From: Acidobacteria bacterium RIFCSPLOWO2_12_FULL_68_19
GTDB lineage: Bacteria; Acidobacteriota; Vicinamibacteria; Vicinamibacterales; UBA2999
Direction of reading: 5' to 3'
Assembly: GCA_001767525.1 (NCBI GenBank)
Contig: MELF01000040.1
Span: 12,919 to 56,111 of the forward strand
Length of the DNA: 43,193 nucleotides
The notes below the pieces were generated by a model. That model was given only the letters and a program-made list of their open reading frames with translations, was not told where the DNA came from and made no database searches. This document shows, piece by piece, positions 5,407 through 43,154 of the stretch (position 1 is its first letter; every line of letters starts with the position of its first letter). The translations under genes and the position numbers were made by a program.

Positions 5407-5432
5407 GCAGCAGGCAGATGGAGAACAGACCC

Positions 5433-6524: not shown

Positions 6525-6528
6525 CGAT

Positions 6529-6572
6529 CACGGGCCACAGGACCCAGAGATCCAGAGACACAGAACACGGAG
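6529..6572. repeat. Dispersed CACAGAGACAC-type repeat, copy 1
   Basis: Purine-rich stretch running CACGGGCCACAG ... CAGAGACACAGAACACGGAG. It shares CACGGGCCACAG exactly with the copy at 28175. Its GGAG end lies about 10 bp before the next start codon and appears to serve as its Shine-Dalgarno. Confidence 0.6.
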
Positions 6573-6583
6573 ATGTGTGAACC

Positions 6584-7639: not shown

Positions 7640-7752
7640 TCCACTGGATCAATTCGATCGCGCAGGATTCGCGGCTGAACATCTACACCGGCGAAGTGGA
7701 GCACGCCAAGCGCATCCAGAAGTTCGTGCCGGTGCCGGCCGGGCGCCGGTAG
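7639..7752 (+). pseudogene. Remnant of an NHL-repeat propeller protein (C-terminal end only)
   Basis: In the frame beginning ATC at 7639, 37 codons run open to a TAG at 7750-7752. They read WINSIAQDSRLNIYTGEV and then HAKRIQKFVPVP. This is the shape of a last NHL blade (hxhxhDsxgNhYxgEV ... RIQKF). There is no start codon or upstream blade, because the preceding bases belong to the Kelch gene. I infer that a neighbouring propeller gene was deleted up to its final blade. An in-frame readthrough extension is excluded because the Kelch stop is in another frame. Confidence 0.5.
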
Positions 7753-7771
7753 ACCCGCGTACACAGAATCT

Positions 7772-7787
7772 GCCGCGCAGTCGCGGC
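7772..7787. terminator. Short hairpin between convergent transcription units
   Basis: GCCGCG-CAGT-CGCGGC, a perfect 6-bp stem with a 4-base loop, sits between the plus-strand Kelch run and the minus-strand RND operon. Neither side has a T-tract, so it is only a weak terminator candidate. Confidence 0.25.
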
Positions 7788-7811
7788 CCGTCGTACGAAG
7801 TTCCTGCTGCC

Positions 7812-9098
7812 CTACGGCAGAACGGCGTGCTGGCGCTCGCGCTCGGCGCGGACGAAGAACACGCCGTCGGTCACCACGTCATCGCCCGCCTGCAGACCCG
7901 CGAGGACGAGCACCCGGTTCCCGCTGGCCTGCCCGACTTCCACCTTCCGCTCGATGAAGCGGCCGCGCTGCGCCGCGTCCGCCAGATAGACCACCGAGTC
8001 GCTGCCGACGATCTGGACCGCCGCCCTTGGCACGAAGACGCCGTGGCGTTCAGCCGCCTCGCCGACCTCGACGTCGACGTACATCCCGAGGCGGAGCTGG
8101 CCGCCGGCGTTCGTCACTTCGACGCGCAGTTTCGCGGTTCGCGTCTCCTGTTGCACCTGGGGATCGATGTAGCCGACGCGCCCGTCGAGCGCCAGCCCCG
8201 GATAGGCGGCGCTGGTGATCGTCGCCGGGCTCCCCACGCGCACGCGCGCGAAGTCGCGCTCGAAGAGGTCCGCGATGATCCACACCGTCGAGAGATCGAC
8301 GACCGTGAAGAGCGGCGTCGACGGATCGATGTTGAGGCCGACATTGGCCGCGCGGCGGGTCACCACGCCGGCCAGCGGGGCGCGAACCGGCATCGTGGTG
8401 ATGACGTCCTGCGGACCGGTGAGCCGCTGGGTCCGCTCTTCGGGGATGCCGAGCAGCGTGAGCCGCGCCCGGGCGATCTCCACCATCGCATCGTGCCGGG
8501 CGCGCTCGGCCTCGATCAGTTCGAGCTCCTCGCGGCTGGCGGCGCCGATCGCGGTCAGCCGCTGCGTGCGCGTCTGCCGCTGCCCGTGCGCCACCTGCTC
8601 CGCCCGGGCCGCCATGAACTCGGTCTGGGCGTCCGCCAGCTCGGGGCTGTAGATCGTGGCGAGCGGGTCCTGGGCGTTGACGCGCTGCCCCAGCTCGGCC
8701 TGCACCTGCGTGACCCGGCCCGAGACGAGCGAGGTCACGACCACCTCACGGTAGGCGTTCGGCTGCACGATGGCGGGAATCCGCAGCCGGGTCGTCGCGG
8801 TGCCCGCGGTCGCCTCCACCGTCCTGACGCCCGCCCGCTCCGTCATTTCCGGCGTGAGCGTCACGACAATCGCCTCTCCGGGATCCGGGCCCGGGGATCC
8901 GGCTCCTGCGTGTGCGGTTCCATGGTCCGGCGCCGGGGGAACCTCTGCGATGGGCGCGTCGGGCCGCTGGCCCCCGGTCGCGGCTCCCGGCCTATCGGCG
9001 CCGCGAACGGAATAGCCAATCGCGATCCCGAGGGCCAGCAGGCACACTGCACCCGCCAGCAGGAGCGGCCACGGCGACCTGGACGGGGAATCGTTCAC
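7812..9098 (-). CDS. cusB: Periplasmic adaptor of heavy-metal RND efflux pump (CusB-like)
   Basis: 428 residues from a GTG at 9098 that overlaps the stop of the TolC-like gene by 4 bp (GTGA), so it is translationally coupled. One N-terminal membrane segment (PLLLAGAVCLLALGIAIGYS) is followed by a histidine- and proline-containing linker. The membrane-fusion core then has the first lipoyl half (SLVSGRVTQVQAELGQRV), an alpha-hairpin at about 160-215 (AARAEQVAHGQRQTRTQRL), the second lipoyl half (VRAPLAGVVTRRAANVG) and the beta-barrel and membrane-proximal domains. It joins the inner-membrane pump to the outer-membrane channel. In Cus-type systems the adaptor also binds the metal, but I see no methionine cluster of the E. 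coli CusB kind at its N-terminus. It is the last gene of the operon. Confidence 0.9.
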   Translation of the reverse strand: MNDSPSRSPWPLLLAGAVCLLALGIAIGYSVRGADRPGAATGGQRPDAPIAEVPPAPDHGTAHAGAGSPGPDPGEAIVVTLTPEMTERAGVRTVEATAGTATTRLRIPAIVQPNAYREVVVTSLVSGRVTQVQAELGQRVNAQDPLATIYSPELADAQTEFMAARAEQVAHGQRQTRTQRLTAIGAASREELELIEAERARHDAMVEIARARLTLLGIPEERTQRLTGPQDVITTMPVRAPLAGVVTRRAANVGLNIDPSTPLFTVVDLSTVWIIADLFERDFARVRVGSPATITSAAYPGLALDGRVGYIDPQVQQETRTAKLRVEVTNAGGQLRLGMYVDVEVGEAAERHGVFVPRAAVQIVGSDSVVYLADAAQRGRFIERKVEVGQASGNRVLVLAGLQAGDDVVTDGVFFVRAERERQHAVLP

Positions 9099-10432
9099 GG
9101 AATCTCTCCGAAGGCGCGAGCGACCGCGGTCCGCGTGTCGTACGCCCGCGTCAGCACGGCCGTGTATGCCGCCTCGACGTCGAGGTAGCGCCGCTGTTCG
9201 GCGAGCACCTCCGCCAGCGGAAAACGGCCGAGGTCGTAGCCTTCGAGCATCACGTCGACGTTCTGGCGCGCCAGGCTCCGGATGCCGGTCGCGTACAGCT
9301 CGACGGCCCGGCGCGCCTCGCGCTCGCGTGCCACCGCCGCCTCGATTTCGGCCCTGGCCGCCCGCTGGCGCGCGGCGAAGAGCGCCTCGGCGCCTGTGCG
9401 TTCCGCCTCGGCGGAGGCCAGCGTCCCCTCGTTGCGGTTCCGGACGGGAAGACTGACGCGTGCTCCCAACGTCACCGTATGAAAGATATCGTGGATCCGG
9501 ACCGGCGTGCCCCGGTGGTCCAGCCCGAGCTGGTCGAAACCGAAGGCCAGGCGCGTGTAGCCGGCCGCCAGCGTCACGTCCGGACGCGCCTGCCGACGGG
9601 CGTCCGCGGCTCGCGCCTCGGCCGCGCTGATCCGCGCCACCGCTTCCCGAAGGTCAGGCCGCGCCTCGAGGGCGGCGGTCGGCGTCAACCGCGGCGAGGC
9701 CGGGGCTCCGGCCAGCGCTTCGAGCGAGTCGCGCAGCACGAGCGGCGCATCCGCGGCGAGACCGGCAACCGCTTTGAGCTCGATCCGCGCCGCCTCCACC
9801 TCGCCTGCGGCGAGGGCCGCCTCCGCCTCCAGGCGCATCGCCTCCACCGACGCGAGGTTCACGTCCAGCTTCGGCGCGCCTCCCTCGGTGACGCGGCGAT
9901 CGAGCAGATCCCGGACGCGCCGGGCCGCGGCGAGCGACTCGTTGAGGACGTCGAGGGTGCGTTCGGCCGCGAGGAGCCGTCCCGCCCACTCGCGCACCGT
10001 CGAGGCGACGACACGTTCGCGCTCGCGGACCGAGAGCGACGTGACGTCCGCGCTGCTCCGCGCGGCGGCGATGCGCGCGTTCCGCCGGAAGAGGTCGAGC
10101 GGCCACTCGACGCCGACGGTCGTCGTCATCATGCCGGCCGAGCCCTGCTCGTGGCTGCTCGCCAGCGTCGGATTCGGGCGCAGCCCGGCCTGCAGCACCT
10201 CGCCGGCGGCGACGCCAATCCCGGCACGCGACGTCTGGAGGTCGGGTGACCGCTCGAGCGCCAGGGCAACGAGTTGCTCGACCGTGACGTCCTGCGCCCG
10301 CGCGTCCGGCGCGAGCGCCAACAGACCACAGAAACAAAGGATCGCAGAGAACGCAGAGATGGCTCCGTGTCTCTGTGCCTCTGTGGCTCCCAGGGGCCAT
10401 ACCGACGTTGCGAGAGGTGTCATCCGTTTCAT
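9095..10432 (-). CDS. TolC-family outer-membrane channel of the RND efflux operon
   Basis: 445 residues. The ATG at 10432 overlaps the cusA stop by 4 bp (ATGA), which fixes the start. The mature part shows the outer-membrane efflux protein pattern: [20 protein letters not shown] near the N-terminus, two repeats of long amphipathic helices ([20 protein letters not shown] in the second half) and a final [20 protein letters not shown] helix. It would form the outer-membrane tunnel for the CusA/CusB pump. The signal peptide is odd. Residues about 16-36 are encoded by a dispersed hairpin repeat (10326-10386), giving an n-region containing GATEAQRHG and a hydrophobic core [15 protein letters not shown] before the DARAQ cleavage site. 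Confidence 0.9.
10326..10386. repeat. Dispersed CACAGAGACAC-type repeat, copy 2, inside the TolC-like gene
   Basis: An imperfect hairpin bounded by CCACAG and CTGTGG. On the minus strand it reads CCACAGAGGCACAGAGACAC in the left arm and a related complementary right arm. Members elsewhere in the window are intergenic, but this one is translated as part of a signal peptide. Confidence 0.65.
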
Positions 10433-13400
10433 CGCACGTGTCCCTCGAAGACGGCCGATCCGCGGCCGGCGGGGCCGTCCCACTCCAGCGTCATCCGCCA
10501 TGTGCCGGTCATGCCGAATTCCGCCGTCACCTCGTACACTCCGGGCTCGGAGGTCGGCGTGATCCTGACCGGGCTCGTCATCACCATTCCGGGCATCGTC
10601 ATCGATCCGCCGAGCTGGACGGCGCCGACGTCGACGAGCTCGTTGGTCGCGGCGGAGCGGAACTCGATGCGGATGCGATTCTCGCGCTGCCGCAGCCCGC
10701 CCTCGGCGCCGGACAGGGTGATCACGAGGTTGCCGCTGCGGACGGTCTCGAGCACCGTGCCGGTGGCCGGCCCCGCCTGGCGGGTCCAGAGCCACCAGCC
10801 GCCGGCAGCGAGCGCCAGCAGCACGAGGAGCGCGAGCACCACTCGTGCACTGCCGGGTCCGCCGTTCCGTTCACGGAGCGGAACCCGGCCTACGAACGCC
10901 GGTGATCTCTCGTCGTAGGTAGGGCGGGTGCCGCGAAGCGGCCCCGCCGGCACGGGCGCCTCGATCGCCGAGGTGCGCAATCGCCGCTCGTGGATCCAGC
11001 AGTAGAGGACCGGCGTCACCACGAGCACGTACAGCAGCGACGACACCATGCCGCCGAGCACCGGCGTCGCCAGCGGCTTCATCACTTCGGCGCCGACGCG
11101 GCCGCTCCACATGATCGGGAGGAGCCCGGCCACCACGGTCGATACCGTCATCACTTTCGGCCGCAGCCGCAGCAGCGCGCCTTCGATCACCGCGTCGCGC
11201 AGCGTCTGCCGGGTGAGGGCGCCGCCCGACTCGGCCTGTTTTCGCCGGACCGCCTCGTCGAGATAGATGACCATCACGACGCCCGTCTGCACGGCCGTGC
11301 CGAAGAGCGCGATGAAGCCGACCCAGACGGCGACCGAGAAGTTGTAGCCGAGCAGCCAGAGCAGGTAGACGCCGCCCGTGAGCGCGAACGGGACGGTCAG
11401 CAGGACGTGCGCCGCCTCGAGCGCCGAGTGATACGTGAAGTACAGCAGCCCGAAGATCACGAGCACGACGATCGGCACGATCACCTGGAGGCGCTGCCGG
11501 GCGAGCTCCTGGTTCTCGTAGCGGCCGCTCCAGCCGACGAAGTAGCCGGCGGGGAGCCCCACGCGGGCGTTCACGGCGCCGCGCGCCTCTTCCACGAAGC
11601 CGCCGACGTCGCGACCCTGCACGTTGAGCAGGACCGTCGCCAGCAGCAGGCCGTTCTCGGAGGTGAGCATGGCGGCGCCGCGCGTCTGCTCGAACCGCGC
11701 GACCTGCGCGAGCGGCACCTGCTCGCCCGACGGCGTCGCCACCAGCACGTTGCCGAGCGTCTGCACCTCGTCGCGGTACTCGGCCGCGTACCGGACGCGC
11801 ACCGGGAAGCGCTGCCGCCCCTCGAGCGTGCGCGTCACGACCCGTTCGCCGATCGCGGTTTCGATCACCTCCTGCACGGCCGCCACGCTGAGGCCGTAGC
11901 GGGCGGCGGCGTCACGGTCGACGCGCACGTTCAAGTACTGCGCCCCGACGAGCGGCTCCGGGTAGACGTTGGCGGCGCCGGGCACCGACCGCAGCACGCC
12001 GGCCACCTCGCGGGCGAGCCGATCGAGCACCCCCGGATCGCCGCCGTAGATCTTCACGCCGACTTCCGACCGGACGCCCGTCGAGAGCATGTCGATCCGG
12101 TTGATGATCGGCATCGTCCAGATGTTGGTGACGCCGGGCAGCTGGGCCGCGGCGCTGAGCTCGGCGCGCAGCGTCTCGAGCGTCAGTCCGGGCCGCCACT
12201 GGTCGCGCGGCCTGAGATGCACGACCGTCTCGGTCATGTTCGGCGGCGACGGGTCGGTCGAGGTGTCGGCCCGGCCGACCTTGGCCACCGCGGACGCCAC
12301 CTCCGGCACCCGCATCAGGGCCGCATTCTGCCGCCGGGCGATTTCGGTGTTCTGCTCGAGCGAGATGCTCGGGTCGGTGATCGGCATGAACAGCAGGTCG
12401 CCTTCGTTGAGCGGCGGCATGAATTCATTGCCGATGCGCGCGCCGACGGCGAGCGCCCCGGCCAGCACCAGCGCGGCGGCGGTCAGCGTGGCCCACCGGT
12501 GGCCGAGCGCCGCCTCGAGCGCCGGCCGGTACAGCCGCTGCAATCCGCGCATCACCGGATTGGCGCGCTCGTCGTGCATCCGTCCGCCGAGCAGCAGCGT
12601 GCACAGCACGGGCACGAGGGTGACCGCCAGCACCGTGGCCGCGAGCACGGCGAACGTCTTGGTGAAGGCGAGCGGCTGGAACAGCTTGCCCGCCTGGCCG
12701 GTCAGGGCGAACACCGGCACGAACGCCAGCAGGATGATGGCCATCGAGAAGAAGACCGGCCGGCCGACCAGCCGCGTCGACTCGAGCACCGCGTTCCAGA
12801 CCGCGCGGCGGTCGCCGACGTCGATGCCGCTCCGCTCCACCTGGCGGAAGGCGTTCTCCGTCACGACGATGCCGGCGTCGACGAGCACGCCGATCGCGAT
12901 GGCAATGCCGGCCAGGCTCATGATGTTGGCCGAGATCCCCGCGTAGTACATGCAGAGGAACGAGATCAGCACCGCGAGCGGGAGCGGCAGCGTGACGACC
13001 AGGATCGAGCGGGCGTGCATCAGGAAGACGATGTGCGCCAGCGTGACGAGTCCGATCTCTTCGAGGAGCGTGAGGCGGAGGGTGTCGACCGCCTGGGAGA
13101 TGAGCGCCGACCGGTCGTAGAAGGGCACGATGCGCACGCCGTCGGGCAGGCCCGGGCTGATCTGCTCGATGCGCGTCTTGACGGCGTCGATGACCTGCTG
13201 GGCGTTGGCGCCGCTGCGCGCCACGACGACCCCGCCGACCGCTTCCCGGTCGCCCTTGACGAGCGAGGCGCTGCGGAACGCGTCGCCGACGCGCACCTCG
13301 CCAATCTGCTGCACGTACACCGGCACGCCCCGGTAGGCGCCGACGACGATCTGCGCGAGGTCGTCGACCGACTCGACGAGCCCCACACCCCGCACGATCG

Positions 13401-14079
13401 ACCACGTGCCGTTGGCCTCCAGCACGTTGCCGCCGACGTTCTGGTTGCTGTTGCGGACCGCCTCGACGACCTCGCCGAGCGAGACGTCGTAGGCGCGCAG
13501 CCGGTTCGGGTCCACGTCGATCTGGTACTGCTGGACGTGGCCGCCGATCGACGCGACCTCGGCGACGCCCGGCACCGCGTTGATCTGGTAGCGGATGAAC
13601 CAGTCCTGCACGGTCCGCAGCTCGCGCAGCGAGTGGCGCCCGCTCTCGACGGTGTACCAGAACACGTGGCCGACGCCGGTGGCGTCGGGACCGAGCGTCG
13701 GCGCGGTCCCCTCGGGCAGCTGCGCGGCGACGAGGCTCAGCCGCTCCAGCACCCGCGTGCGCGCGAAGTACTGATCCACGTCGTCCTCGAAGATCACGTA
13801 GATCATCGAGAAGCCGAACGCCGACTGCGAGCGCACCACACGCACGCCGGGCAGCCCCTGCAGGTTGACGGTCAGCGGATAGCTGACCTGATCTTCGACT
13901 TCCTGCGCGCCGTGGCCGGGCCACTCCGTGAAGACGATGACCTGGTTGTCGGAGAGGTCGGGGATGGCGTCGATCGGCGTCGCCCCTGCCGCCCACCACC
14001 CCCAGGCCCCGAGGCCGGACGCCAGGAGGATGACGAGGACGCGGTTGCGGAGCGAGAGCTCAATGATCCGGTTGAGCAT
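10429..14079 (-). CDS. cusA: CusA-type heavy-metal RND efflux permease with extra C-terminal FixH/YtkA-like domain
   Basis: 1216 residues, about 170 longer than usual for CusA. Residues 1 to about 1045 are a full RND pump. The N-terminal helix is [19 protein letters not shown], then come porter domains ([36 protein letters not shown]), a TM4 region reading [20 protein letters not shown], a second porter half, and TM8-12 ([20 protein letters not shown]). The TM4 region is nearest to the copper/silver subgroup of the heavy-metal RND family, so monovalent Cu or Ag export is my inference. After a linker at about 1045-1075 encoded by REP-like DNA come one more membrane helix ([19 protein letters not shown]) and a FixH/YtkA-like beta domain. 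That domain carries MTMPGMVMT, a methionine-rich patch that could bind copper. It is the first gene of the cusA-tolC-cusB operon. Confidence 0.92.
10915..10950. repeat. REP-like element inside the cusA linker, copy 1
   Basis: Contains TAGGGCGGG, the palindrome GCCGCGAAGCGG and CCCCGCCGG. It matches the intergenic copy at 41262-41299 almost base for base over about 33 bp. Here it is in frame within cusA and encodes part of the linker ([15 protein letters not shown]). Confidence 0.7.
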
Positions 14080-15117: not shown

Positions 15118-16122
15118 TTACCGCGCCGTGAACTCGAAGACCTCGTGCGCCGGCGTGTGAAGCTCCCGTTCGCCGGTGGCGGCAAAGGCGATGTGGCCGC
15201 CGATGGCGTGCAGCCGGTTGCCGAACCCCGCGAGATTGACGCCGTGCCGCGCCGTGGGCATCGGCGGCAGCCGGTACCAGTCGTTGGTCGCCGGGTCGAA
15301 GACCTCGACGTCGCGGAAGATCGCGTCCATGTGGCTGTCGCGCACTTCGCCGCCGGCCACGTAGATCCGGCCCTGGAAGGTCGTGTAGCCGTGCCCGCTG
15401 CGGGGCGTCGGCATCTTGTTCACGGCCCGCCACGTGTTGGTCGAGGGGTCGTACTCCTCGACAACGTCGGTGTTGCTCGACACGAAGCCGCCGATGTTCG
15501 GGGCGGCGAGCCGGCCGCCGATCACGTAGATCTTCCCGCCGGCGGCGCCTGCGGCCGGATGGTTGCGCGGCGTCGGCATCGGCGTGCGGCTCTCCCACCG
15601 GTTGGCGGAGGGGTCGAACGCGTCGTTGGCGCCCACGGTGAGACCGTTCGCGGTGTTGCCGCCCACGACATAGATGCGCCCGCCTGCTTCGACCGCCGCC
15701 GCGGCGGTGCGCCCGGTCGGCATCGGCAGAAGCGGCCGCCAGGTGTCGGCCGCCGGGTCGTACTCCCACGTCGAGCTGAGCGGCTTGTTGACGCCCCCTT
15801 CGGCCTGACCGCCGAAGACGTAGATCTTCCCGCCGAATGCGGCGGCAGCCATGTGATCGCCCGGGAACGGCACGGGCTTCTTCGTGGTCCACCGATCGGA
15901 CGCGAGGTCGTACTCCAGCACGTGCCGGGGCCACTCCTTGCGTCCGCCGCGGTTGCCCCCAAGCAGATAGAGCCGGTCGCCGGCGACGACGGCGGTGTAC
16001 TCCTCCTCGGGCTGCGGCAGCGGCGCGTACCTGTTGGTGATCCAGCGTCCAGGCGACTGCGCCAGAACCGTGAGCGTGGCGAGGACGAGGGCGAGGGCGA
16101 GTGCGGCGGACGCGCGAAGCAT
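15118..16122 (-). CDS. Exported Kelch-repeat beta-propeller protein
   Basis: 334 residues from the ATG at 16122. The Shine-Dalgarno is poor, and a GTG 18 bp upstream in frame is an alternative start. The signal peptide is SAALALALVLATLTVLAQ. Kelch units repeat as GGKIYVFGGQAEGG, WEYDPAADTWRPL, GRIYVVGGN and VEEYDPSTNTWRAV, and the protein closes with the family phrase HEVFEF. It is divergent from the cytochrome c gene at 16207 and 20 bp upstream of the VOC gene. A likely shared transcript with VOC is inferred from spacing. No catalytic residues are recognised. Confidence 0.9.
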   Translation of the reverse strand: MLRASAALALALVLATLTVLAQSPGRWITNRYAPLPQPEEEYTAVVAGDRLYLLGGNRGGRKEWPRHVLEYDLASDRWTTKKPVPFPGDHMAAAAFGGKIYVFGGQAEGGVNKPLSSTWEYDPAADTWRPLLPMPTGRTAAAAVEAGGRIYVVGGNTANGLTVGANDAFDPSANRWESRTPMPTPRNHPAAGAAGGKIYVIGGRLAAPNIGGFVSSNTDVVEEYDPSTNTWRAVNKMPTPRSGHGYTTFQGRIYVAGGEVRDSHMDAIFRDVEVFDPATNDWYRLPPMPTARHGVNLAGFGNRLHAIGGHIAFAATGERELHTPAHEVFEFTAR

Positions 16123-16206: not shown

Positions 16207-16581
16207 ATGGGTAGTCGGCTGGTCGTCCGGCTTCTGCTGTTCTCGGTCCTCGCCTTCCCGCCGATCGGCGTGACGGCCCAGCAAGGCGGTGGAACGTCGG
16301 CGCTTGGCGTCACCGTCGGCAAGCTGCAGACCGACGAGCAGAAGCGCGGCGACGCCATCTTCCACAAGAACTGTCACCTGTGCCACATCGCCACGGCGCA
16401 GAAGCGCGAGCTCAAGATCAACGCCGACGAGCTCGTCGGGTTGTTCAAACGGCCGAACACCAGCGAGCCGGCGGTGCGACAGCTGATTCAGGAGGGCATC
16501 CCGAAGCGCATGCCGTCCTTCCGGTACAACTTCACCGCCGTCGAGGTGGACGATCTGATCGCGTACCTGAAGGTCCGTTAG
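16207..16581 (+). CDS. Small exported monohaem cytochrome c
   Basis: 124 residues starting at an ATG with a GGAGGGGAG Shine-Dalgarno. The signal peptide is LLLFSVLAFPPIGVTAQ. One haem-attachment motif, CHLCH, is at residues 56-60. The distal methionine is most likely the Met of KRMPSF about 45 residues later, followed by the usual final helix VEVDDLIAYLKV. It is a class I periplasmic electron carrier. It stands 45 bp before a larger cytochrome-propeller gene, and the same arrangement recurs at 40905/41319. I infer that it is the electron partner of that larger protein. Confidence 0.9.
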   Translation: MGSRLVVRLLLFSVLAFPPIGVTAQQGGGTSALGVTVGKLQTDEQKRGDAIFHKNCHLCHIATAQKRELKINADELVGLFKRPNTSEPAVRQLIQEGIPKRMPSFRYNFTAVEVDDLIAYLKVR

Positions 16582-16626
16582 CGACCCGCCCACATTACGT
16601 CCGCACTTCCGCGAAGGAGGAGAGCG

Positions 16627-18480
16627 ATGTCCCGATCCCGTGTGATGGTCCTGGTCGTCGGTCTCGCGGCGGTTGCACTCGCCACGACGCTGCCTGCCGT
16701 GTCCGACAGCGCCGCACCCGGCATCGAACTGACCGGAACGATCAAAGGCGCGGACGGCAAGCCGATGGAAGGCGTTGCGGTGTCCGCCAAGGCCGAGGGG
16801 TCGCCGGTGACCACGTCGGTCTGGACGAACCAGAACGGCGCCTACGCCTTCCCGGCGCTCGAGGCGGGCCGCTACAGGGTGTGGGCGCAGGCGATCGGTT
16901 TCAGTCGCCCGGTCGCCGAGGCGGCCGTCACCCCGGGCCGCGGCGTGCAGCAGAACTTCACGCTCGAGCCGACCGCGATCATCCCGAGGTCGCTCTCGAC
17001 CGCGGAATGGATGCAGAGCCTGCCCGCCGAGACGAGCCTCGATCGGCGCATGAAGATCGTGGTGCTCAACAACTGCAGCAACTGCCACCTGCCGGCGAAC
17101 TGGCTCGAGAAACGTTTCGATACGGCGAGCTGGGAGACGCTCCTCGACTACATGGAGAAGATCGCGCCGCACGGCGACGTGCCGGAGAACTCCGCGGGCG
17201 ATCCGCCGGGGCGGCGCCCCGGCGGCGCCGAATTCCCCGCCGGGGAGCTCGACGCCAACGGCGATCCCGTCAGCATCCACACCAAGCTGATGCGGTTCTA
17301 CCGCAAGGATCTGATCGAGTACCTGACGCGCGTCGCCGGGCCGAAGGGCCTGGCGCTCCAGGCGAAACCGTTCCCGCGCCCGACCGGCGTCGCCACCGAG
17401 ATCGTCGTCACCGAGTACGACCTGCCGTTCGAGCGCCCCGGCGGCGTCGGCAAGCTCGATCCACGCACGGGCAAGGTGTCGTTCCTCACGGTCCGCGACG
17501 GCAAGACGATGGTGCAGGAGGTTCCGGTGGTCGGCCGCAACGAGTACCGGAGCGGCTCGGACTGGAGCTGGGGCACGCGGGACGAACACCTCGAGCGCGG
17601 CACGCACGACATCGCGATCGGCGTCAACGGCAACGTCTATTTCGGCATGAATGCGATGAGCGCCGATCCCGCCCGGGGCTACGTCTGGTATTCCAACGGC
17701 CGGCAGATCACGAGCGTCGATACCCGAACCGACACCATCACGTCGCATCCGGGGCTGCGCTACCCGCTGTCGCACGGCACGCAGGTCGATAGCCGGGGGA
17801 ACGTCTGGGGTTCGTTCGGGCTCGGTTTCGTGCGGCTCGACGTCGCAACCGGCACGATCAAGGAGTTCAACACAATCACGCCGTTCAGCCGGCCCTACGA
17901 CCTCGGCGTGGACCGGTTCGACAACGCCTGGGTGTCGCAGCTCGCGCTCGACAGGCTCTCGGTCGTCGACGGCCGGACCGGTGAGGTGAAGGAGGTCGCG
18001 CTGCCGCCGTTCACCTCCCCCGATCTCCGCCCGGAGGATCTCGAGATCCTGCGCACGGTGGGGTCCTGGGATCACAACGCGGCGCCGGGGCAGCAGGGGC
18101 CGCGGCGCATGAGCGCCGACGCCCGGGGCGACTACGTGTGGGCCGGGCTGTACTGGGCCGGGGGCATCGCGCAGATCGACGCCCGCACGAAGACGTTCGT
18201 CAAGATCCATTCGGTGCCGGAGCTCCGATGGGCGCAGCCCTACAAGCCGATCGCGGACAGAAACCACATGGTCTGGTTCAGCAATTCCGCGGCGGACATT
18301 CTGGGGCAGCTCAATCCGACCACCGGGAAGATCACGCTCTATCCGCTGCCGACGCGCGGCACCAACTCGCGGCACCTGGCGGTGGACGACACGACCGGCA
18401 TCCCGACCGTCTGGGTGCCGTACACCGGCGCCGGCAAGATGGCGCGCGTGCAGTTCCGGTTCGACACGTCGAAGAACTGA
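16627..18480 (+). CDS. Exported carboxypeptidase-regulatory / cytochrome c / streptogramin-lyase-like propeller protein
   Basis: 617 residues with a GAAGGAGGAGAG Shine-Dalgarno. Order: a signal peptide to about residue 30; a carboxypeptidase-regulatory beta-sandwich at about 35-115 (GTIKGADGKPMEGVAVSAKA, GRYRVWAQAIGF); a haem site CSNCH at 150-154; then a propeller at about 250-610 of Vgb (virginiamycin B lyase) type, with blades such as DSRGNVWGSFGLGFVRLD and VDRFDNAWVSQLALDRLSVV. Vgb linearises streptogramins, but the haem and the neighbours argue for a different job here, perhaps an oxidoreductase or electron-linked binding protein. I did not identify the Vgb catalytic histidines. It is 64-66 percent of a module with the upstream cytochrome, and it is followed 8 bp later by a TonB receptor. 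Confidence 0.87.
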   Translation: MSRSRVMVLVVGLAAVALATTLPAVSDSAAPGIELTGTIKGADGKPMEGVAVSAKAEGSPVTTSVWTNQNGAYAFPALEAGRYRVWAQAIGFSRPVAEAAVTPGRGVQQNFTLEPTAIIPRSLSTAEWMQSLPAETSLDRRMKIVVLNNCSNCHLPANWLEKRFDTASWETLLDYMEKIAPHGDVPENSAGDPPGRRPGGAEFPAGELDANGDPVSIHTKLMRFYRKDLIEYLTRVAGPKGLALQAKPFPRPTGVATEIVVTEYDLPFERPGGVGKLDPRTGKVSFLTVRDGKTMVQEVPVVGRNEYRSGSDWSWGTRDEHLERGTHDIAIGVNGNVYFGMNAMSADPARGYVWYSNGRQITSVDTRTDTITSHPGLRYPLSHGTQVDSRGNVWGSFGLGFVRLDVATGTIKEFNTITPFSRPYDLGVDRFDNAWVSQLALDRLSVVDGRTGEVKEVALPPFTSPDLRPEDLEILRTVGSWDHNAAPGQQGPRRMSADARGDYVWAGLYWAGGIAQIDARTKTFVKIHSVPELRWAQPYKPIADRNHMVWFSNSAADILGQLNPTTGKITLYPLPTRGTNSRHLAVDDTTGIPTVWVPYTGAGKMARVQFRFDTSKN

Positions 18481-18487
18481 GGGAGCC

Positions 18488-21391
18488 ATGACAGGCAGGA
18501 CACGCGTCGTCGCGCTCGTCGTGTCGTGCGCCTTCCTGGCGCTGCCCGCCATCAGTGCGGCGCAGGCGGGAAGCGCGATTACCGGCGTCGTACGCGACGC
18601 CTCCGGAGGCGTGCTGCCGGGCGTCACGGTCGAAGCCGGCAGCCCCGCCTTGATCGAAGGGACCCGCAGCGCCGTCACCGACGGGCAGGGGGTCTACCGC
18701 ATCGTGGACCTCCGGCCCGGCGCCTATCGCGTGACCTTCACGCTGCAGGGTTTCCGGTCGCTGGTGCGCGACGGCGTCGTCCTGACGTCGGCGTTCACCG
18801 CCACGGTCAACGGCACCCTCGAAGTCGGCGCCGTCGAGGAGACCGTGACCGTCACCGGCGAGGCGCCGGTCGTGGATACCCAGAACGTCTCGGCGCGCGA
18901 GGTCTTCACGCGCGACACCGTCGAAGCGCTGCCGATCGCCAAGACGACCGGCGTCTGGGCCTCGCTCGTTCCCGCCATCAGACAGCCGATTGCCACCGAC
19001 GCCGGCGCGACCGGCGGCATGGACGTGGGCGCCACGCAGAGCGAGCGGTCGCAGGCGGAGATCACCGTCCATGGCGGGTCGGCGGACATCAGGGTCGTGC
19101 GCGAAGGCATGGAAGCGATGCGCGGCGTCTACAGCATGAACCGGGTGGACACGCAGGAAATCACCGTGCAGATGGGCGGCAACCCGGCCGAGGCCGAGAC
19201 CGGCGGCGTTCGCATCAACATCATCCCGAGGGAGGGCGCCAACACGCTGTTCGGAACTTTCGAGCTGGACGGCACGACCGAGGCGTTCCAGGGGAGCAAC
19301 ATCGACAACGAGCTGCGCGCCCGGGGGCTGGCGGGAACGCCGTACGTCAAGCAGGCGTACAACGCCGGCGGCTCAGTGGGCGGCCCCATCCGCCAGGACA
19401 AGCTGTGGTTCTTCGGGTCGTATCGACGGTGGGGCTCGGAGCTGTGGCTGCCTGGCAAGTATTTCAACAAGACGCAGGGGACGCACCTCTACACGCCGGA
19501 CCTGAGCCGGCCGGCGTTCTCGAGCGACTACTACGGGAGCGCCACGAGTCGCGTCACCTGGGCGGCGACGGGGAAGCAGAAGTTCAATTTCACCTTCGAA
19601 TACGCGAACAACTGCAACTGCGTGATCCGGCTGATTGCGCTCAACCGGGCGCCGGAGGCAACCGGGGACCATCTGTACCATCACCGCGTGCCCCAGGCGT
19701 CGTGGCAGTACGCCAGGAGCAACCGGCTGCTGTTCGAGGGCGGCTTCTCGTGGTACCGCGGGCTCGGCGACAGCGAGGCGGTGGAAGGGGTCTCCGCCGA
19801 CCACATCGCCATTCGTGAGCTGACCACCGATTTCCGCTGGAACGCGCGGGCCGACAACATCGCCGGCACCGGCGCCTACGCGCGCCGGTCGATGCAGAAC
19901 AACCTGAGCGAGCGGTTCAACGTGTCGTACGTCACCGGGTCGCACAACCTCAAGACCGGCATCTGGGTCCAGCAGTGGCCGAATTTCGCCGAGTACTTCG
20001 TCAACGGCGGGATGCTCGAGAACTTCCGGAACGGCGTGCCCACCTCCGTCGTGCTCTACGCCTCGCCGCAGTATCAGGAGACAATGGCGCACAACATCGG
20101 CGTGTACGCCCAGGATCAGTGGACCCTGCGGCGGCTGACCCTCAACCTGGGCCTGCGCTACGACAGCTATCGCGGGTACGCCCGGGAGGTGAACGCGCCG
20201 GCCGGTCCATTCGTCCCTGCGCGCCATTTCGACGAGACGGACGACCTGACGAACCTGAAGGACATCAACCCGCGGTTGGGAGCCGCCTACGATCTGTTCG
20301 GCAACGGCCGCACGGCCGTGAAAGGCTTCGTGGGGCGGTTCATCGTCGGCCAGGCCGGCGATGTCCCGTCGCAGCCCGCCCTGGCGGTCGTCACCAGCGC
20401 CACGCGGACGTGGACCGACCGGAACGGCGATTTCGTTCCCCAGGAGAGCGAGTTGGGGCCGCTCTCCAACAGCCGGTTCGGCAGCCCGAGGCCCGAAGCG
20501 CTGACCGTGGACAAGGATGTGCGATTCGGGTGGGGGAATCGCGCGTACACGTGGCAGGGAATTGTCTCGGTCGACCACGAGCTGCTGCCGGGCTTCGGCG
20601 TGCAGCTCGCGTACTACCGGACGTGGTGGGGGAACCAGAGCTTCACCGAGAACCTGCTGGTGTCTCCGTCGGATTTCGACGAGTACTGCATCACGGCGCC
20701 GGTCGATCCGCGGCTGCCGGCGAGCGGCCAGCGGGTCTGCGGGCTGTACGACGTGAAGCCGTCGAGATTCGGGCAGGTCGACAGCTTCCAGAGCCTGGCG
20801 GGCGACCGCATGAAGCGCATCTTCGACGGCATCGACCTCAACGTGAGCGGACGTTTCGGCGACGGCGCCACCGTCGGCGGCGGCATCGCGTTCGGCAACA
20901 CGGTGACCGACAACTGCGGGATTGCCGTCGATTCGCCGCAGGATCGGCGCTACTGCCGCACCGTCTACGGCTGGTCCGACGACGTGCAGTTCAAGATCAA
21001 CGGCACGTATCCGCTGCCGTGGGACCTCAGGGTCAGCTACGTGTTCCAGAGCGTCGCGGGGTTCCCCGTCCTGGGCAGCTACGTGGTCACCAGCGCGCTG
21101 GCGGCCCCCTCGCTCGGCCGGAACTTCTCGGCGGGCGCGCAAGGCACGTCCGACGTCGCGCTGGTCGAGCCGTATACGATGTTCGACGACCGCACGAACA
21201 TGCTCGATCTGCGTTTCTCGAAGCGAGTCCGGGTACGACGGACGAGCATCACGGGCAACGTCGATTTGTCGAACGTGTTCAACGCGAACACGCCGCAGTA
21301 TCTCAACACGCAGTACGGACCCCAGTGGCTGAATGTGACCAATGCCCTGTCGGCCCGGGTGGTGCGGCTGGGGGTGCAGGTCGGATTCTGA
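18488..21391 (+). CDS. TonB-dependent receptor, Oar-like, with N-terminal carboxypeptidase-regulatory domain
   Basis: 967 residues. The ATG follows the previous stop by 7 bp, with GAGGGAG straddling that stop as the Shine-Dalgarno. The signal peptide ends ISAAQA. The carboxypeptidase-regulatory domain is at about 32-118 (ITGVVRDASGGVLPGVTVEA, GVYRIVDLRPGAYRVTFTLQ). A plug-like region carries MNRVDTQEITVQMGGNPAEA and GGVRINIIPREGANTLFG, and the rest is barrel. It ends VRLGVQVGF, with the C-terminal phenylalanine expected for barrel assembly. It lies downstream of the cytochrome c/propeller pair and upstream of the carboxymuconolactone-decarboxylase-like genes, so the group looks like an uptake-plus-modification unit. 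Substrate unknown. Confidence 0.92.
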   Translation: MTGRTRVVALVVSCAFLALPAISAAQAGSAITGVVRDASGGVLPGVTVEAGSPALIEGTRSAVTDGQGVYRIVDLRPGAYRVTFTLQGFRSLVRDGVVLTSAFTATVNGTLEVGAVEETVTVTGEAPVVDTQNVSAREVFTRDTVEALPIAKTTGVWASLVPAIRQPIATDAGATGGMDVGATQSERSQAEITVHGGSADIRVVREGMEAMRGVYSMNRVDTQEITVQMGGNPAEAETGGVRINIIPREGANTLFGTFELDGTTEAFQGSNIDNELRARGLAGTPYVKQAYNAGGSVGGPIRQDKLWFFGSYRRWGSELWLPGKYFNKTQGTHLYTPDLSRPAFSSDYYGSATSRVTWAATGKQKFNFTFEYANNCNCVIRLIALNRAPEATGDHLYHHRVPQASWQYARSNRLLFEGGFSWYRGLGDSEAVEGVSADHIAIRELTTDFRWNARADNIAGTGAYARRSMQNNLSERFNVSYVTGSHNLKTGIWVQQWPNFAEYFVNGGMLENFRNGVPTSVVLYASPQYQETMAHNIGVYAQDQWTLRRLTLNLGLRYDSYRGYAREVNAPAGPFVPARHFDETDDLTNLKDINPRLGAAYDLFGNGRTAVKGFVGRFIVGQAGDVPSQPALAVVTSATRTWTDRNGDFVPQESELGPLSNSRFGSPRPEALTVDKDVRFGWGNRAYTWQGIVSVDHELLPGFGVQLAYYRTWWGNQSFTENLLVSPSDFDEYCITAPVDPRLPASGQRVCGLYDVKPSRFGQVDSFQSLAGDRMKRIFDGIDLNVSGRFGDGATVGGGIAFGNTVTDNCGIAVDSPQDRRYCRTVYGWSDDVQFKINGTYPLPWDLRVSYVFQSVAGFPVLGSYVVTSALAAPSLGRNFSAGAQGTSDVALVEPYTMFDDRTNMLDLRFSKRVRVRRTSITGNVDLSNVFNANTPQYLNTQYGPQWLNVTNALSARVVRLGVQVGF

Positions 21392-29303: not shown

Positions 29304-30977
29304 ATGCGAATCGCACGAACGGTGGTGCTGTCGCTGTCGATCGTGGTGCTGTGGGCGTCGGTCGGGCCGCAGGCCGCCGACGCGGTGATCCGCGGGACGG
29401 TCGCCGACACGGCGGGCAAGCCGATCGCCGGCGCCCTGGTGAAGGCAACGCTCGGGAGCAAGAGCGTGTCGCGGTACACCGGCGCCGACGGCCGCTACGA
29501 GCTGACGGTCCAGCCCGGCACCTACGCCCTGGCCGCCGAGGCGTTCGGGTTCGCCACCGAGCGGCGATCGAAGGACGCCTCCGAGGCCGGGGCGACCAAC
29601 TTCGCGCTGGCGCCGAGCTGGAGCGTCACCCAGTTCACCGGCGCCGACATCGATCGGCTGATCCCGGACGATCACGCGCCGGCGCAGCTCCTCAAGTCGA
29701 CGTGCATCAATTGCCACGCCCTCGACGTGATGCTGCGCCGCCGCGGCGGGACCGCCGCCGAGTGGCGGGCCTACGTCGAGAAGCAGATGCCCCTGCGCTA
29801 CGGCCGCCCCTACGGCGCGAGCGAGGCCGAGTGGAAGGTGATCACGAGCGAGCTCGAACGTTGGTTCGGCCCGAAGGGCCGGTATTTCGGACCGGGCGCC
29901 GAGCCGCCGAAGCCCGAGCAGGTCCGCCGCCCGAGCATGGCGCCCGAGGTGGCTCGGGCGACCTTCTACGAGTACACGATGCCGAATCCGCGCACCATGC
30001 CGCACAGCCTGGCCGTCGATCGGGCCGGGCGCGTGTGGGTGGCTGGCTGGGACGCGGCGACCAACGCGGTCGTCCGGTTCGACATCGCCTCCGAGCAGTT
30101 CCGCACCTACCCGGTGCCCACGCCCAACGCCGTTCCGCACACGCCCTGCATCAGCCGGGACGGTCGCGTCTGGATGGCGCTCAACGCGCGCGGCACCGCG
30201 AAGGTGGCGATGGTTGACCCGGCGACCGACCAGTTGGCCGAGATCGCATGGGACGAAAAGCAGCCCGGCACGCACAACTGTCAGGAGGACCGCGACGGCA
30301 ACCTGTGGTTCTCCTCGCTCGGTGAGTCCGACGAGGGGTTCTACGTGTACACTCCTGCCACGCGGCGGTTCCGCAGCTACAAGTACCCGCTGCCCGCGGC
30401 GTATCCGGCGGGATCGAAGGCGCTGCGCGACACCGCAGAGGGTGATCCGACGCCGGCCGTTCGCGCCGGGCTGTACGACGCGAAGGTCGATTCGACCGGC
30501 ACCGGATGGGGCGTGACGTATTCGATGGGAATGATTGTCAGCGTGAACCCCAGGACCGGCGAGACGAAGGCGTACTTTCCGCCCGATACGCCGCAGATTC
30601 GCGGCGTGATGGTCGATTCCCAGGACAACGTCTGGTTCGCCGCCTTCGACAACCACAAGGTCGGGAAGCTCGATCCGAGGAGCGGCGCATTCACGTTCTA
30701 CCAGCCGCCGACGACGAAGGCGTCGCCCTACAGCTTCGTCGAAGACACGAGACGGGGCGTCATCTGGTTCGGCGACTTGAACGGCAACAACCTGACGCGG
30801 TTCGATCCGCGCACCGAGACGTTCGTCGAGTACCCGTTCCCGAGCCGCAACGTGAATCCGAGGCTCGGCATCGGGATCGATCCGCAGGGCCGGATCTGGT
30901 TTACCCAGTTCCTGAACGGGCGCATCGGTGCGCTCGACCCGGGGGACATGCCGCCGACGACGACGAGTTCGCGATGA
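29304..30977 (+). CDS. Exported carboxypeptidase-regulatory / cytochrome c / streptogramin-lyase-like propeller protein
   Basis: 557 residues, with a GAGGAG Shine-Dalgarno 18 bp after the Ldh stop. A signal peptide (VVLSLSIVVLWASVGPQAADA) is followed by a regulatory beta-sandwich at about 28-105 (IRGTVADTAGKPIAGALVKA, ADGRYELTVQPGTYALAAEA), haem site CINCH at 134-138, and propeller blades from about residue 230 (HSLAVDRAGRVWVAGWDAA, DRDGNLWFSSLGE, VDSQDNVWFAAFDNHKVGKL, IDPQGRIWFTQFLNGRIGAL). It belongs to the same family as the genes at 16627, 36331 and 41319 but has no small cytochrome gene beside it. The propeller resembles virginiamycin B lyase in fold only, as far as I can tell. Periplasmic redox role inferred. 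Confidence 0.86.
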   Translation: MRIARTVVLSLSIVVLWASVGPQAADAVIRGTVADTAGKPIAGALVKATLGSKSVSRYTGADGRYELTVQPGTYALAAEAFGFATERRSKDASEAGATNFALAPSWSVTQFTGADIDRLIPDDHAPAQLLKSTCINCHALDVMLRRRGGTAAEWRAYVEKQMPLRYGRPYGASEAEWKVITSELERWFGPKGRYFGPGAEPPKPEQVRRPSMAPEVARATFYEYTMPNPRTMPHSLAVDRAGRVWVAGWDAATNAVVRFDIASEQFRTYPVPTPNAVPHTPCISRDGRVWMALNARGTAKVAMVDPATDQLAEIAWDEKQPGTHNCQEDRDGNLWFSSLGESDEGFYVYTPATRRFRSYKYPLPAAYPAGSKALRDTAEGDPTPAVRAGLYDAKVDSTGTGWGVTYSMGMIVSVNPRTGETKAYFPPDTPQIRGVMVDSQDNVWFAAFDNHKVGKLDPRSGAFTFYQPPTTKASPYSFVEDTRRGVIWFGDLNGNNLTRFDPRTETFVEYPFPSRNVNPRLGIGIDPQGRIWFTQFLNGRIGALDPGDMPPTTTSSR

Positions 30978-40904: not shown

Positions 40905-41258
40905 ATGAGGCGTCATTCCCTGGTGCTCCTGTTCCTGCTGGCCGCCGGCGCGCCGCAGGCGTACGGCCAGCAGGCGGCCGACGGTCTCACCGAGCAGCAG
41001 CGTCTGGGCCGTCAGGTCGTGGCGCAGGCGTGCGGGGTGTGCCACCTGCCGCCCGCCCGCGGCGCGGGGACCTATGGTCCTGCGTTGAGCAAGGCGAGCG
41101 GCGGCGGCAAAGACGATCTGATGCGGAAGATCATTCAGGAAGGCACTCCACGCATGCCGGCGTTCCGGTATTTTCTTCAGCCAGCCGAGATCGACGCGGT
41201 GATCGCGTACGCCCGGACCCTCCCGCCGCCCGCCCCGGCGCCGGCGGTGGCTCGCTGA
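40905..41258 (+). CDS. Small exported monohaem cytochrome c
   Basis: 117 residues with a CAGGAGGG Shine-Dalgarno. The signal peptide is LVLLFLLAAGAPQAYGQ. The haem motif is CGVCH at 43-47. The distal methionine is probably in TPRMPAFRYF, followed by the final helix AEIDAVIAYARTL and a proline/alanine tail. It is a paralogue of the cytochrome at 16207 in length, motif spacing and the R-M-P-x-F-R-Y segment. It lies immediately upstream of a large cytochrome-propeller gene, repeating the 16207/16627 arrangement. It is divergent from the minus-strand unit. Confidence 0.9.
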   Translation: MRRHSLVLLFLLAAGAPQAYGQQAADGLTEQQRLGRQVVAQACGVCHLPPARGAGTYGPALSKASGGGKDDLMRKIIQEGTPRMPAFRYFLQPAEIDAVIAYARTLPPPAPAPAVAR

Positions 41259-41299: not shown

Positions 41300-41318
41300 A
41301 ATGAAGAGGAGAAGCGTT

Positions 41319-43154
41319 ATGACGAAGCTGCGAACCCTGCTCCTGGTGGGAGCGGCCAGTCTGCTGGTTGCGACCGGGGCCCGAGCCGCCGACCACGCGC
41401 TCGCCGGCGCCATCGCCTCTCCGTCTGGAGAGAAGCTGGGGGGAGTGACGGTCTACGCGAAGATGGAAGGCTCGACCGTCACGACCACCGTCTACACCGA
41501 CGAGAGCGGTTCCTACTACTTCCCGCCGCTTCCGGCCGGCAAGTACCGGGTCTGGGCCCAGGCGCTCGGCTTCGAGCCCGCCAGGAGCACGGTGGATCTC
41601 TCCGCGCGCCGTCGTCAGGATCTCGTGCTGCGGCCGATGACCGATCCGGAGCGCCGCATCCGGCAGATGCCGAGCGAGATGCTGGCGGCCGCGCTGCCCG
41701 AGGCGACTCCCGACGACGCCCGGATCAAGAAGATCTTCTTGAACAACTGCACCGCGTGTCATCCGCCCGGCTATATCCTGCAGTTCCGATTCGACGAAGC
41801 CGGCTGGAACAAGGTGGTCAACCTGATGAAGGTGATCCCGGGCACCGGCGTCTATCCCGGCCCCAATGCCCGGGTCAATCAGATCATGGACCGCAACCAG
41901 AAGGAGCTGGTCGCCTATCTGACGCGCGCGCGGGGGCCCGGCGAGACGTCGATGAAGTTTCCGCCGCGTGCGCGGCCGGCGGGCGAGGCGGCGCGGGTCG
42001 CCTGGAAGATCTATGACCTGCCGCTCAACCCCGAGGCGGGCATCGGGACCAAGTACAACGACAACGACGGATCGACCGACTGGGCGCTCGGACAGCCCTC
42101 CAAGCTCGGCGAGCTGCCGCACGACGGCGGCATGGGGCTCGATGGGAATCTGTACTACACCGTGAACAATCCCAACCGAGGCGTCACGATCGGCAAAGTC
42201 GACGGCAGGACCGGCGAGGTCACCTACCTCAAGGTCGACGGCCGCAACGGCGAGGCGGCGACCGCGCACGGGCTGACGCGCGACGGGCAGGGGAACTTCT
42301 GGTTCGACGTCAATCCCGGCCGACGCGCTCTCGGCAAGCTCGAGACGAAGACCGGCAGGATCACCGTGTACCAGACGCCTGCCCAGATGACGCCGCTCGG
42401 CGGCGCGGTGACGCTCGATGTGGACGGCAAGGGGAAGATCTGGGCGTCGGCGCCGGAAGGCGCGGTGCGCTTCGACCCCGCCACCGAGACGTTCACCGCG
42501 TACACGTCGATCACGTCCAAGAGCGCGAAGGGGGCCGTCGCCACCTACGGCGCCGCGGGCGACCGGGACGGCAACGGCTGGTGGGCGCAGATGGCGCTCG
42601 ACACCATCGGCACGGCCAACGGCCAGACCGGCCAGGTGTCGGAGATCAAGCTCTCGCCGGTGAACGCCGAGATGGAGAAGGTGAAGCCGGAGGACCGGGA
42701 GTTCTACTTCAACTTCAACGAGCTGAGCTTCAACACGCCGGTCCCCTGGTCGCAGGGGCCGCGGCGCATGGGCACCGACAAGAACGCCGACGTCCTCTGG
42801 GTGGGGAACTCGTGGGGCGCGTCGCTGACGCGGATCGACACGAAGACGCGCGAGACGACCTACATCCCGCTGCCCAGTTCCGCGCTGCAGCCGTATCACA
42901 TCGCGGTGGACAGCCGGCACAACGCGTGGGGCGATCTCTGGACGGCGGATCAGCTCTTCAAGTACGACCCGGCGGCGAACCGATTCACCCTCTTCGACCT
43001 GCCGGTGCACGGCACCGAGATTCGCCACATCTCGCTCCTCGAGCGCGACGGGCGGCTCCAGGTGATCGTGCCGATCTACCGGGCGAGCCAGATGGGCGTG
43101 ATGACGGTCCGCACCGACGCGGAGCTGTCGGCTCTCCGGGCGCAGGCGCGGTAG
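41319..43154 (+). CDS. Exported carboxypeptidase-regulatory / cytochrome c / streptogramin-lyase-like propeller protein
   Basis: 611 residues from the ATG at 41319. I choose it over 41301 because AGAGGAGA (41305-41312) is correctly spaced for it. The signal peptide is TLLLVGAASLLVATGARAA. Order: a regulatory beta-sandwich at about 26-110 (GAIASPSGEKLGGVTVYAKM, GKYRVWAQALGFEPARS), haem site CTACH at 144-148, then a propeller from about 225 (GMGLDGNLYYTVNNPNRG, LDVDGKGKIWASAPEGAVRF, IAVDSRHNAWGDLWTADQLF). It closely follows the layout of the protein at 16627, including the shared AARSS-free linker and the pairing with a small cytochrome. The stop is 39 bp from the window end, so any downstream receptor is out of view. 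Confidence 0.87.
   Translation: MTKLRTLLLVGAASLLVATGARAADHALAGAIASPSGEKLGGVTVYAKMEGSTVTTTVYTDESGSYYFPPLPAGKYRVWAQALGFEPARSTVDLSARRRQDLVLRPMTDPERRIRQMPSEMLAAALPEATPDDARIKKIFLNNCTACHPPGYILQFRFDEAGWNKVVNLMKVIPGTGVYPGPNARVNQIMDRNQKELVAYLTRARGPGETSMKFPPRARPAGEAARVAWKIYDLPLNPEAGIGTKYNDNDGSTDWALGQPSKLGELPHDGGMGLDGNLYYTVNNPNRGVTIGKVDGRTGEVTYLKVDGRNGEAATAHGLTRDGQGNFWFDVNPGRRALGKLETKTGRITVYQTPAQMTPLGGAVTLDVDGKGKIWASAPEGAVRFDPATETFTAYTSITSKSAKGAVATYGAAGDRDGNGWWAQMALDTIGTANGQTGQVSEIKLSPVNAEMEKVKPEDREFYFNFNELSFNTPVPWSQGPRRMGTDKNADVLWVGNSWGASLTRIDTKTRETTYIPLPSSALQPYHIAVDSRHNAWGDLWTADQLFKYDPAANRFTLFDLPVHGTEIRHISLLERDGRLQVIVPIYRASQMGVMTVRTDAELSALRAQAR

Follow-up and report, generated by a model that had tools for sequence, protein, structure and literature searches.

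What is the function of a gene that joins a carboxypeptidase-regulatory domain, a c-type haem motif and a propeller resembling virginiamycin B lyase (Vgb), and that stands directly behind a gene for a small cytochrome c? We examined such a gene pair at positions 16,207 to 18,480 of a 43,193-nucleotide stretch from Acidobacteria bacterium RIFCSPLOWO2_12_FULL_68_19 (GenBank assembly GCA_001767525.1, contig MELF01000040.1, here C40:12919-56111); the window denotes this whole stretch. The host genome comprises 4.2 Mb in 52 contigs, and the nearest named matches are groundwater Acidobacteria metagenome-assembled genomes (MAGs; L043, 90% identity, and L084, 87%). Our analysis indicates that the two genes probably encode an undescribed electron-transfer pair and not an antibiotic-destroying enzyme. 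The pair and its haem sites are well supported; its substrate and catalysis are what we infer. The features of the pair are as follows.

16207..16581, + strand: small, probably exported monohaem class I cytochrome c, the dedicated partner (124 residues; CHLCH at residues 56-60; Pfam matches; Shine-Dalgarno sequence)
16627..18480, + strand: probably exported haem-propeller protein (617 residues: signal peptide, CarboxypepD_reg, haem domain with CSNCH at 150-154, predicted seven-bladed Vgb-type propeller)
16729..16968, + strand: carboxypeptidase-regulatory beta-sandwich, residues 35-114 (PF13620, 6.6e-17)
16981..17370, + strand: haem domain, residues 119-248, with CSNCH at 150-154 and invariant W169 and M176 (alignment, profile searches)
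17383..18459, + strand: seven-bladed propeller, residues 253-611 (predicted structure, alignment of 51 members)

Both open reading frames (ORFs) lie where an initial annotation, made from the letters alone, had placed them. They are separated by 45 bases, and strong Shine-Dalgarno sequences provide each with a good ribosome-binding site. The 124-residue protein is a class I cytochrome c, carrying CxxCH and scoring above the Pfam cut-offs for Cytochrome_CBB3 (PF13442, 38.2 bits, cut-off 27) and PF00034 (22.4 bits, cut-off 21.3). Signal peptides, judged by eye, suggest that both proteins are exported.

The cytochrome partner across genomes

We followed the pair through a named scan that took one genome per species and used two beta-sandwich peptide patterns, and that is not a census. 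It returned 56 loci from Acidobacteria, Alpha- and Betaproteobacteria, Rokubacteria and two doubtfully labelled MAGs (Bordetella and Chitinophaga). Five named loci (L048, L050, L090, L097 and L098) were incomplete, had broken frames or were matched only in their beta-sandwich, and they were dropped before partners and barrels were counted; the remaining 51, together with five genes of the host genome, made up a tested set of 56 family genes. A hidden Markov model (HMM) of the cytochrome was built from 37 small cytochromes. The alignment of 51 members used below holds 46 named genes and the five of the host; it excludes L057, L089 and L091, all under 540 residues, as well as L092 and L096. L057 and L096 are frame-broken, and the fused gene of L096 is absent from the tree.

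A cytochrome of this one HMM family was found on the same strand within 500 bp, or fused, for 52 of the 56 family genes (upstream in 44, downstream in 4 and fused in 4). Three of the genes without it (L056, L083 and L087) begin at the first bases of their contigs. In the fourth, L096, the ORF that had been picked (5129-6862) is a paralogue, and the matched gene (7001-8678, frame-broken near its start) has a cytochrome fused at its C end. Within 707,642 bp, 54 matches to the cytochrome HMM lay near picked genes and a single one, that of L096, lay beyond 1 kb. Fusions occur at the N terminus in L062, L068, L076, L103 and L131 and at the C terminus in L072 and L096; fusion at either end combined with varied gene order is a classical sign of functional partnership. 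Furthermore, the cytochrome and large-protein trees were strongly correlated (Mantel r = 0.928), with none of 2000 permutations as high and a permutation maximum of 0.249.

Because the named loci had helped to build the cytochrome HMM, we also examined a second set, consisting of family genes from further genomes outside the named set and de-duplicated by hand. The cytochrome was present in 15 of these 17 (L100, L101, L103, L104/L109, L108, L131, L133, L136, L137, L143, L145, L151, L153, L154 and L159). L104/L109 and L159 are broken genes, for which the distance to the cytochrome was taken from the second piece, and one further high-scoring gene of genome G228 was left out of the set. The two genes without a cytochrome were L130, which stands second in a tandem behind L136, a copy that has one, and L132, which ends at a contig edge. 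Among lower-scoring haem-propeller relatives (188-311 bits versus 447 or more), a cytochrome was found for 1 of 19 (L106), the flanks covered being about 0.5 to 1.4 kb long. At L060 and L070 such a relative sits directly upstream of a pair and so shares its adjacency to the cytochrome; the two betaproteobacterial loci (L060:3676-4881 and L070:3626-4834) share a gene order in which the unpaired relative, a small protein and two probable membrane proteins precede the pair. These results indicate that, across distantly related soil and groundwater bacteria, the haem-propeller protein has this cytochrome as a near-obligate partner. The paired module proposed in the initial annotation is real.

The propeller, the haem domain and the lyase name

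An AlphaFold2 model of the 617-residue protein, computed with 51 homologues, reached a mean pLDDT (per-residue model confidence) of 87.4 and a pTM (global fold score) of 0.89. In the PDB it came closest to both Vgb enzymes of known structure (Z = 27.4), the best non-Vgb chain scoring 24.1. Residues 253-611 and 258-611 superposed on 2qc5 and 2z2n over 265 and 260 residues, respectively (Z = 27.4, root mean square deviation 2.0 A). Foldseek likewise returned Vgb for the propeller (E = 3e-16), and propellers filled the top rows among the matches listed in the fold search. The propeller is thus predicted to be a seven-bladed Vgb-type fold, and its description as Vgb-like was borne out at that level. 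In searches with family models, the 617-residue protein scored 37.5 bits and the second copy in the window 50.1 bits against the curated Pfam Vgb_lyase cut-off of 50, and the NCBIfam VgbA and VgbB models gave 17.5 and 16.3 bits against a cut-off of 600; other members fitted the Pfam model better, as given below. A CarboxypepD_reg domain was present in 51/51 members.

We then compared active-site positions by profile alignment to 2qc5, with Vgb residue numbers counted along the alignment. His270 is given as a catalytic residue in the title of PDB entry 2z2p, and His228 and Glu268 are positions that we take to belong to the lyase active site. The position of His228 is Y539 here (Tyr in 51/51), that of Glu268 is residue 580 (Asn here, Glu in 38/51) and that of His270 is R582 (Arg in 49/51). 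This last assignment depends on the alignment, since a one-residue shift would bring H583 (His in 36/51) to position 270. As aligned, the propeller has lost the catalytic residues of the lyase, and because both histidines are replaced, the name virginiamycin B lyase would mislead for this protein, as had been suspected. The reverse situation, a conserved Vgb site in homologues that lack a partner cytochrome, was not what we found: the site is not conserved, and the partner is present in other genomes.

The propeller has its own set of near-invariant residues, namely H327 (50/51), Y424 (51/51), R493 (51/51), R494 (50/51), Y539 (51/51) and R582 (49/51), which, together with D328, are placed at blade starts. 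Taken with the secondary structure, they suggest a different, cationic and tyrosine-lined pocket, whose ligand may be a small molecule of anionic, carboxylate-bearing or phenolic character. A copper cluster in the propeller was considered and provisionally set aside, H327 being the single near-invariant histidine; copper propellers of the thiocyanate dehydrogenase type have several conserved histidines in the central tunnel.

The fold also bears on a reading in which the propeller performs non-redox chemistry as a lyase, lactonase or hydrolase, with a structural or regulatory part for the haem. The proximity to Vgb speaks for it, as do the matches of 49/51 members to Pfam Vgb_lyase at E ≤ 0.01 (best 9.9e-29). 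According to the CylK paper (PMC8916777), the Vgb site is made up of polar residues of the sixth and seventh blades, and the Vgb-like protein CylK illustrates that the fold supports other chemistry. Yet Tyr and Arg align with His228 and His270, subject to the H583 shift, and a co-inherited cytochrome would have no evident role, so we give this reading little credence.

Between the beta-sandwich and the propeller lies a helical haem domain (residues 119-248) in which C150, C153 and H154 are invariant in 51/51 aligned members, as are W169 and M176. The CSNCH motif is therefore not a chance occurrence. It takes the form CxxCH in 49 members and CxxxCH in two (L032:4082-6028 and L069:532-2412, with CFGGCH and CSTQCH); CxxxCH was also seen in L106, L137 and L155. 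Aligned homologues without a haem motif, which would have spoken against a haem site, were not found. Haem is probably attached at these motifs, and the host genome encodes cytochrome c assembly proteins (three PF01578 matches).

Full-length members matched Cytochrome_CBB3 in 6/51 and Cytochrom_C in 4/51, in a set that includes four cytochrome fusions. When we isolated the domain (32 of the 51 haem-domain segments), Cytochrome_CBB3 was matched by 22/32 at E ≤ 1, and at the same threshold there were weak matches to the NCBIfam models TIGR03908 (19/32) and SorB (15/32) and to PF09098 (8/32). The profile of these 32 domains, compared with the PDB, ranked the alpha subunit of quinohaemoprotein amine dehydrogenase first (E = 0.002 and 0.01; 1jju, 0.002); class I cytochromes c came next (0.03) and then SorB (0.18).

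Two separate haem sites that are kept together, sometimes in one chain, would also suit a dihaem peroxidase-like or redox-sensing pair whose internal haem reacts with peroxide, nitric oxide or O2. We consider this improbable: the invariant M176 (51/51), if a ligand, would occupy the distal site, and the dihaem peroxidase model was matched by only 3/32 haem domains, none of them better than E = 0.016.

Neighbouring genes, copies and distribution

The window holds a second copy of the pair and further relatives, and the first copy is followed by an outer-membrane barrel.

18488..21391, + strand: outer-membrane barrel with CarboxypepD_reg (PF25183), co-directional with the pair and not generally found with it
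29304..30977, + strand: distant relative with CarboxypepD_reg, CINCH and Vgb propeller (557 residues; no adjoining small cytochrome; outside the pair)
40905..41258, + strand: second copy, small cytochrome c (117 residues, CGVCH)
41319..43154 (ORF start possible at 41301), + strand: second copy, haem-propeller protein (611 residues, CTACH)

Another CxxCH-bearing beta-sandwich/propeller relative lies at 36331-38502 (- strand). What had been called the first copy does have a second in the window, and the host genome has five pairs in all, in diverged copies (30-39% identity of the large proteins to the first); we aligned 11 of its CxxCH beta-sandwich/propeller proteins, including the five of the paired type. 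Genome G237 carries four high-scoring copies.

The initial annotation had placed a TonB receptor 8 bp behind the large gene and linked the pair to uptake. The barrel does follow directly, with a spacing of 7 bases past the stop codon, and barrel genes lie within 6 genes of 3/5 host-genome pairs. Across the tested set, a barrel of this type occurred within 6 genes at 9/56 loci, all in Acidobacteria, and all 11 barrel ORFs of this strict count were on the strand of the pair. Looser clustering gave 10/56 by adding L068, where the barrel is on the opposite strand. None was found at the 20 loci labelled as other phyla, as far as the flanking DNA reached, and PF25183 barrels are common in the host genome (55 matches, several per gene). 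We therefore rejected uptake as a general feature, and that the pair is part of a TonB-dependent uptake system seems to us very improbable.

Behind the barrel stand two carboxymuconolactone-decarboxylase (CMD)-like genes, the first of which scores under its cut-off. Beyond the window and 3' of the second pair, one strand carries CMD-like, glyoxalase-like, full-length pyrroloquinoline quinone (PQQ) dehydrogenase and amidohydrolase genes (L041:2458-7198, C40), the PQQ dehydrogenase (623 bits) being three genes past the pair; L079 has a similar order of CMD-like, glyoxalase-like and amidohydrolase-sized genes.

When neighbours were clustered, the commonest were an exported family that no Pfam model matched (14 loci), TctC-type solute receptors (11 loci) and unpaired haem-propeller relatives (11 loci). 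A Pfam scan covered 101/125 co-directional neighbours, and tallies were taken from the first 25 of 107 families. Among the matches listed, the commonest were CarboxypepD_reg (12), barrels (8) and PQQ dehydrogenases (6), with TctC receptors, Vgb-like relatives and metallo-beta-lactamase folds at 4 each. PQQ dehydrogenases lie near L052, L053, L055, L060 and L093, and Novosphingobium rosa (L066) has a tannase and a multicopper oxidase near its pair. These neighbours suggest catabolic surroundings and no pathway; a shared pathway was dropped because no enzyme family occurred in most loci in either scan.

The same neighbours are relevant to the possibility that the pair is an electron conduit only. 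It would then carry out no chemistry itself; separate periplasmic oxidoreductases (PQQ dehydrogenases, multicopper oxidases or molybdenum enzymes) would dock at or bind to its propeller and be connected through the pair to respiration. The PQQ dehydrogenases, including the one past the second host pair, and the multicopper oxidase of L066 fit this possibility. So does an unpaired haem-propeller relative of the host genome that adjoins a molybdopterin oxidoreductase (PF00174, PF03404) and a cytochrome c (L034:4047-7767, C48), possibly a second redox arrangement of the wider family. Against it, most loci do not have any one enzyme family in common, and the invariance at the blade starts suggests that the ligand is a specific small molecule. 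We regard a pure conduit as unlikely, while rating it above the other alternatives.

In the phylum sample, at least 8/199 genomes had a match at E ≤ 1e-30; G107 and G131 hold lower-scoring relatives (L105 and L106), leaving six. In the family of the host, at least 10/43 genomes were positive at 1e-60. Elsewhere we counted at least 1/249 genomes in the family of N. rosa and at least 1/297 in the order of L075, in each case only the starting genome, and at least 3/300 in the order of L060. These tallies are lower bounds because few candidates were scored per genome (6 for the phylum, 30 for the host family, 5 for the N. rosa family and 4 each for the orders of L075 and L060). The distribution is rare and patchy, and carriers can have several copies, a pattern that fits horizontal spread and expansion. 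A search with the Novosphingobium protein found no plasmid carriage, and no carrier was found in a search of viral contigs.

Several other genes were observed. Exported proteins of a PDLQGxW family occur near the pair in 14 loci (30 proteins; L052, L053 and L069 among them), and the window has two of them (38515-39480 and 39522-40760, - strand), the longer without a Pfam match. An AcrB-type resistance-nodulation-division efflux pump with a C-terminal YtkA-like domain (PF13115, 3.8e-10) is encoded at 10429-14079 (- strand) and adjoins an outer-membrane efflux protein. Four kelch-propeller proteins are encoded at 2-874 (- strand), 5445-6524, 6584-7639 and 15118-16122 (- strand); in the close relative L084, too, kelch genes are found ahead of the pair.

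A proposed path for electrons

We propose that the two proteins form an exported redox pair: a ligand bound by the propeller would donate electrons, which the haem of the large protein would relay to the cytochrome. For this proposal we see belief and doubt as evenly balanced. The propeller pocket would bind the small molecule described above; electrons would enter at or near the propeller pore, from that ligand or from a docked oxidoreductase, move to the built-in c-type haem between beta-sandwich and propeller, and then pass to the dedicated monohaem cytochrome and the respiratory chain. The genes, haem motifs, pairing, fusions, co-divergence, predicted fold and loss of lyase residues are the observations from which this path starts, and pocket, ligand class, direction of electron flow and catalysis would follow if it is correct. 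The periplasmic oxidoreductases among the neighbours and the cytochrome c assembly genes of the host also speak for it. A broader version, which we put forward tentatively and rate as somewhat doubtful, is that the pair represents a new class of periplasmic oxidoreductase, with a Vgb-type propeller pocket, a built-in haem c and a co-inherited cytochrome that may be split or fused. This class would spread patchily, often in multiple copies, through mostly uncultured soil and groundwater bacteria and would oxidise organic acids or phenolics.

Several points weigh against this path. Nearest neighbours in the two trees agree for 34/52 pairs, and for 12/19 in multi-copy genomes, and the co-divergence may stem from joint inheritance, which would explain part of the tree match. 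In the model of a natural fusion most of the cytochrome half had a pLDDT below 50, giving no docking support. The similarity of the haem domain to redox enzymes is weak and not far better than to ordinary cytochromes c, and M176 is a putative distal ligand. No redox cofactor besides haem could be recognised in the propeller and no second cofactor site was evident, which leaves no obvious group to oxidise a substrate. Finally, clustering at the 56 loci found no neighbour other than the cytochrome in most of them, the next commonest (14/56) having no known function.

The plan of the proposed pair can be set beside those of known systems. Vgb (2z2n, 2z2p and 2qc5) shares the seven-bladed propeller and is the best structural match, whereas here its two histidines are replaced and a haem domain, a beta-sandwich and a cytochrome partner are added. 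Quinohaemoprotein amine dehydrogenase (1jju, 1jmx), the source of the weak haem-domain match (E = 0.002), combines haem c with a beta-sandwich and a seven-bladed propeller, as here; its alpha subunit has two CxxCH haem sites, and a small gamma subunit bears a quinone. In contrast, the unfused large protein of the loci listed here is a single chain with one haem motif and a separate cytochrome. No quinone-bearing subunit was seen, and among neighbours of 100 residues or more no third gene recurred. PQQ dehydrogenases, with cytochrome cL or a fused cytochrome c, are likewise propeller redox enzymes with a dedicated or fused cytochrome, but we found no PQQ domain match in the pair, and the propeller belongs to another family. 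The SorAB sulfite dehydrogenase resembles the pair through the weak SorB match (2blf); unlike there, no molybdenum subunit family recurs beside the pair.

Thiocyanate dehydrogenase is a periplasmic seven-bladed propeller enzyme whose putative electron acceptor is the single-haem cytochrome c552 (PMC9456337), the same plan of a propeller plus a single-haem cytochrome; its centre holds three copper ions, whereas here there is one near-invariant propeller histidine and the propeller chain itself carries haem. The plan of the proposed pair is comparable to those of thiocyanate dehydrogenase, PQQ dehydrogenase with cytochrome cL and quinohaemoprotein amine dehydrogenase, with whole-protein homology shown to none. 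A parallel to hydrazine synthase was dropped because the order of haem and propeller differs (PMC12758564). No Vgb-type propeller tied to redox chemistry was found in the literature searched. The suggestion that the system is not a described one agrees with our finding no description in the openly licensed literature, of which coverage was partial and which is weak evidence.

Genes of this kind could be annotated as virginiamycin B lyases, and soil resistome counts could as a result mistake redox proteins for antibiotic resistance. The pair can be tested directly, as Novosphingobium rosa NBRC 15208 is a strain-collection carrier. If it is an oxidoreductase, it would add a propeller family to periplasmic respiration and would suggest that Acidobacteria and Proteobacteria use an electron donor not yet recognised.

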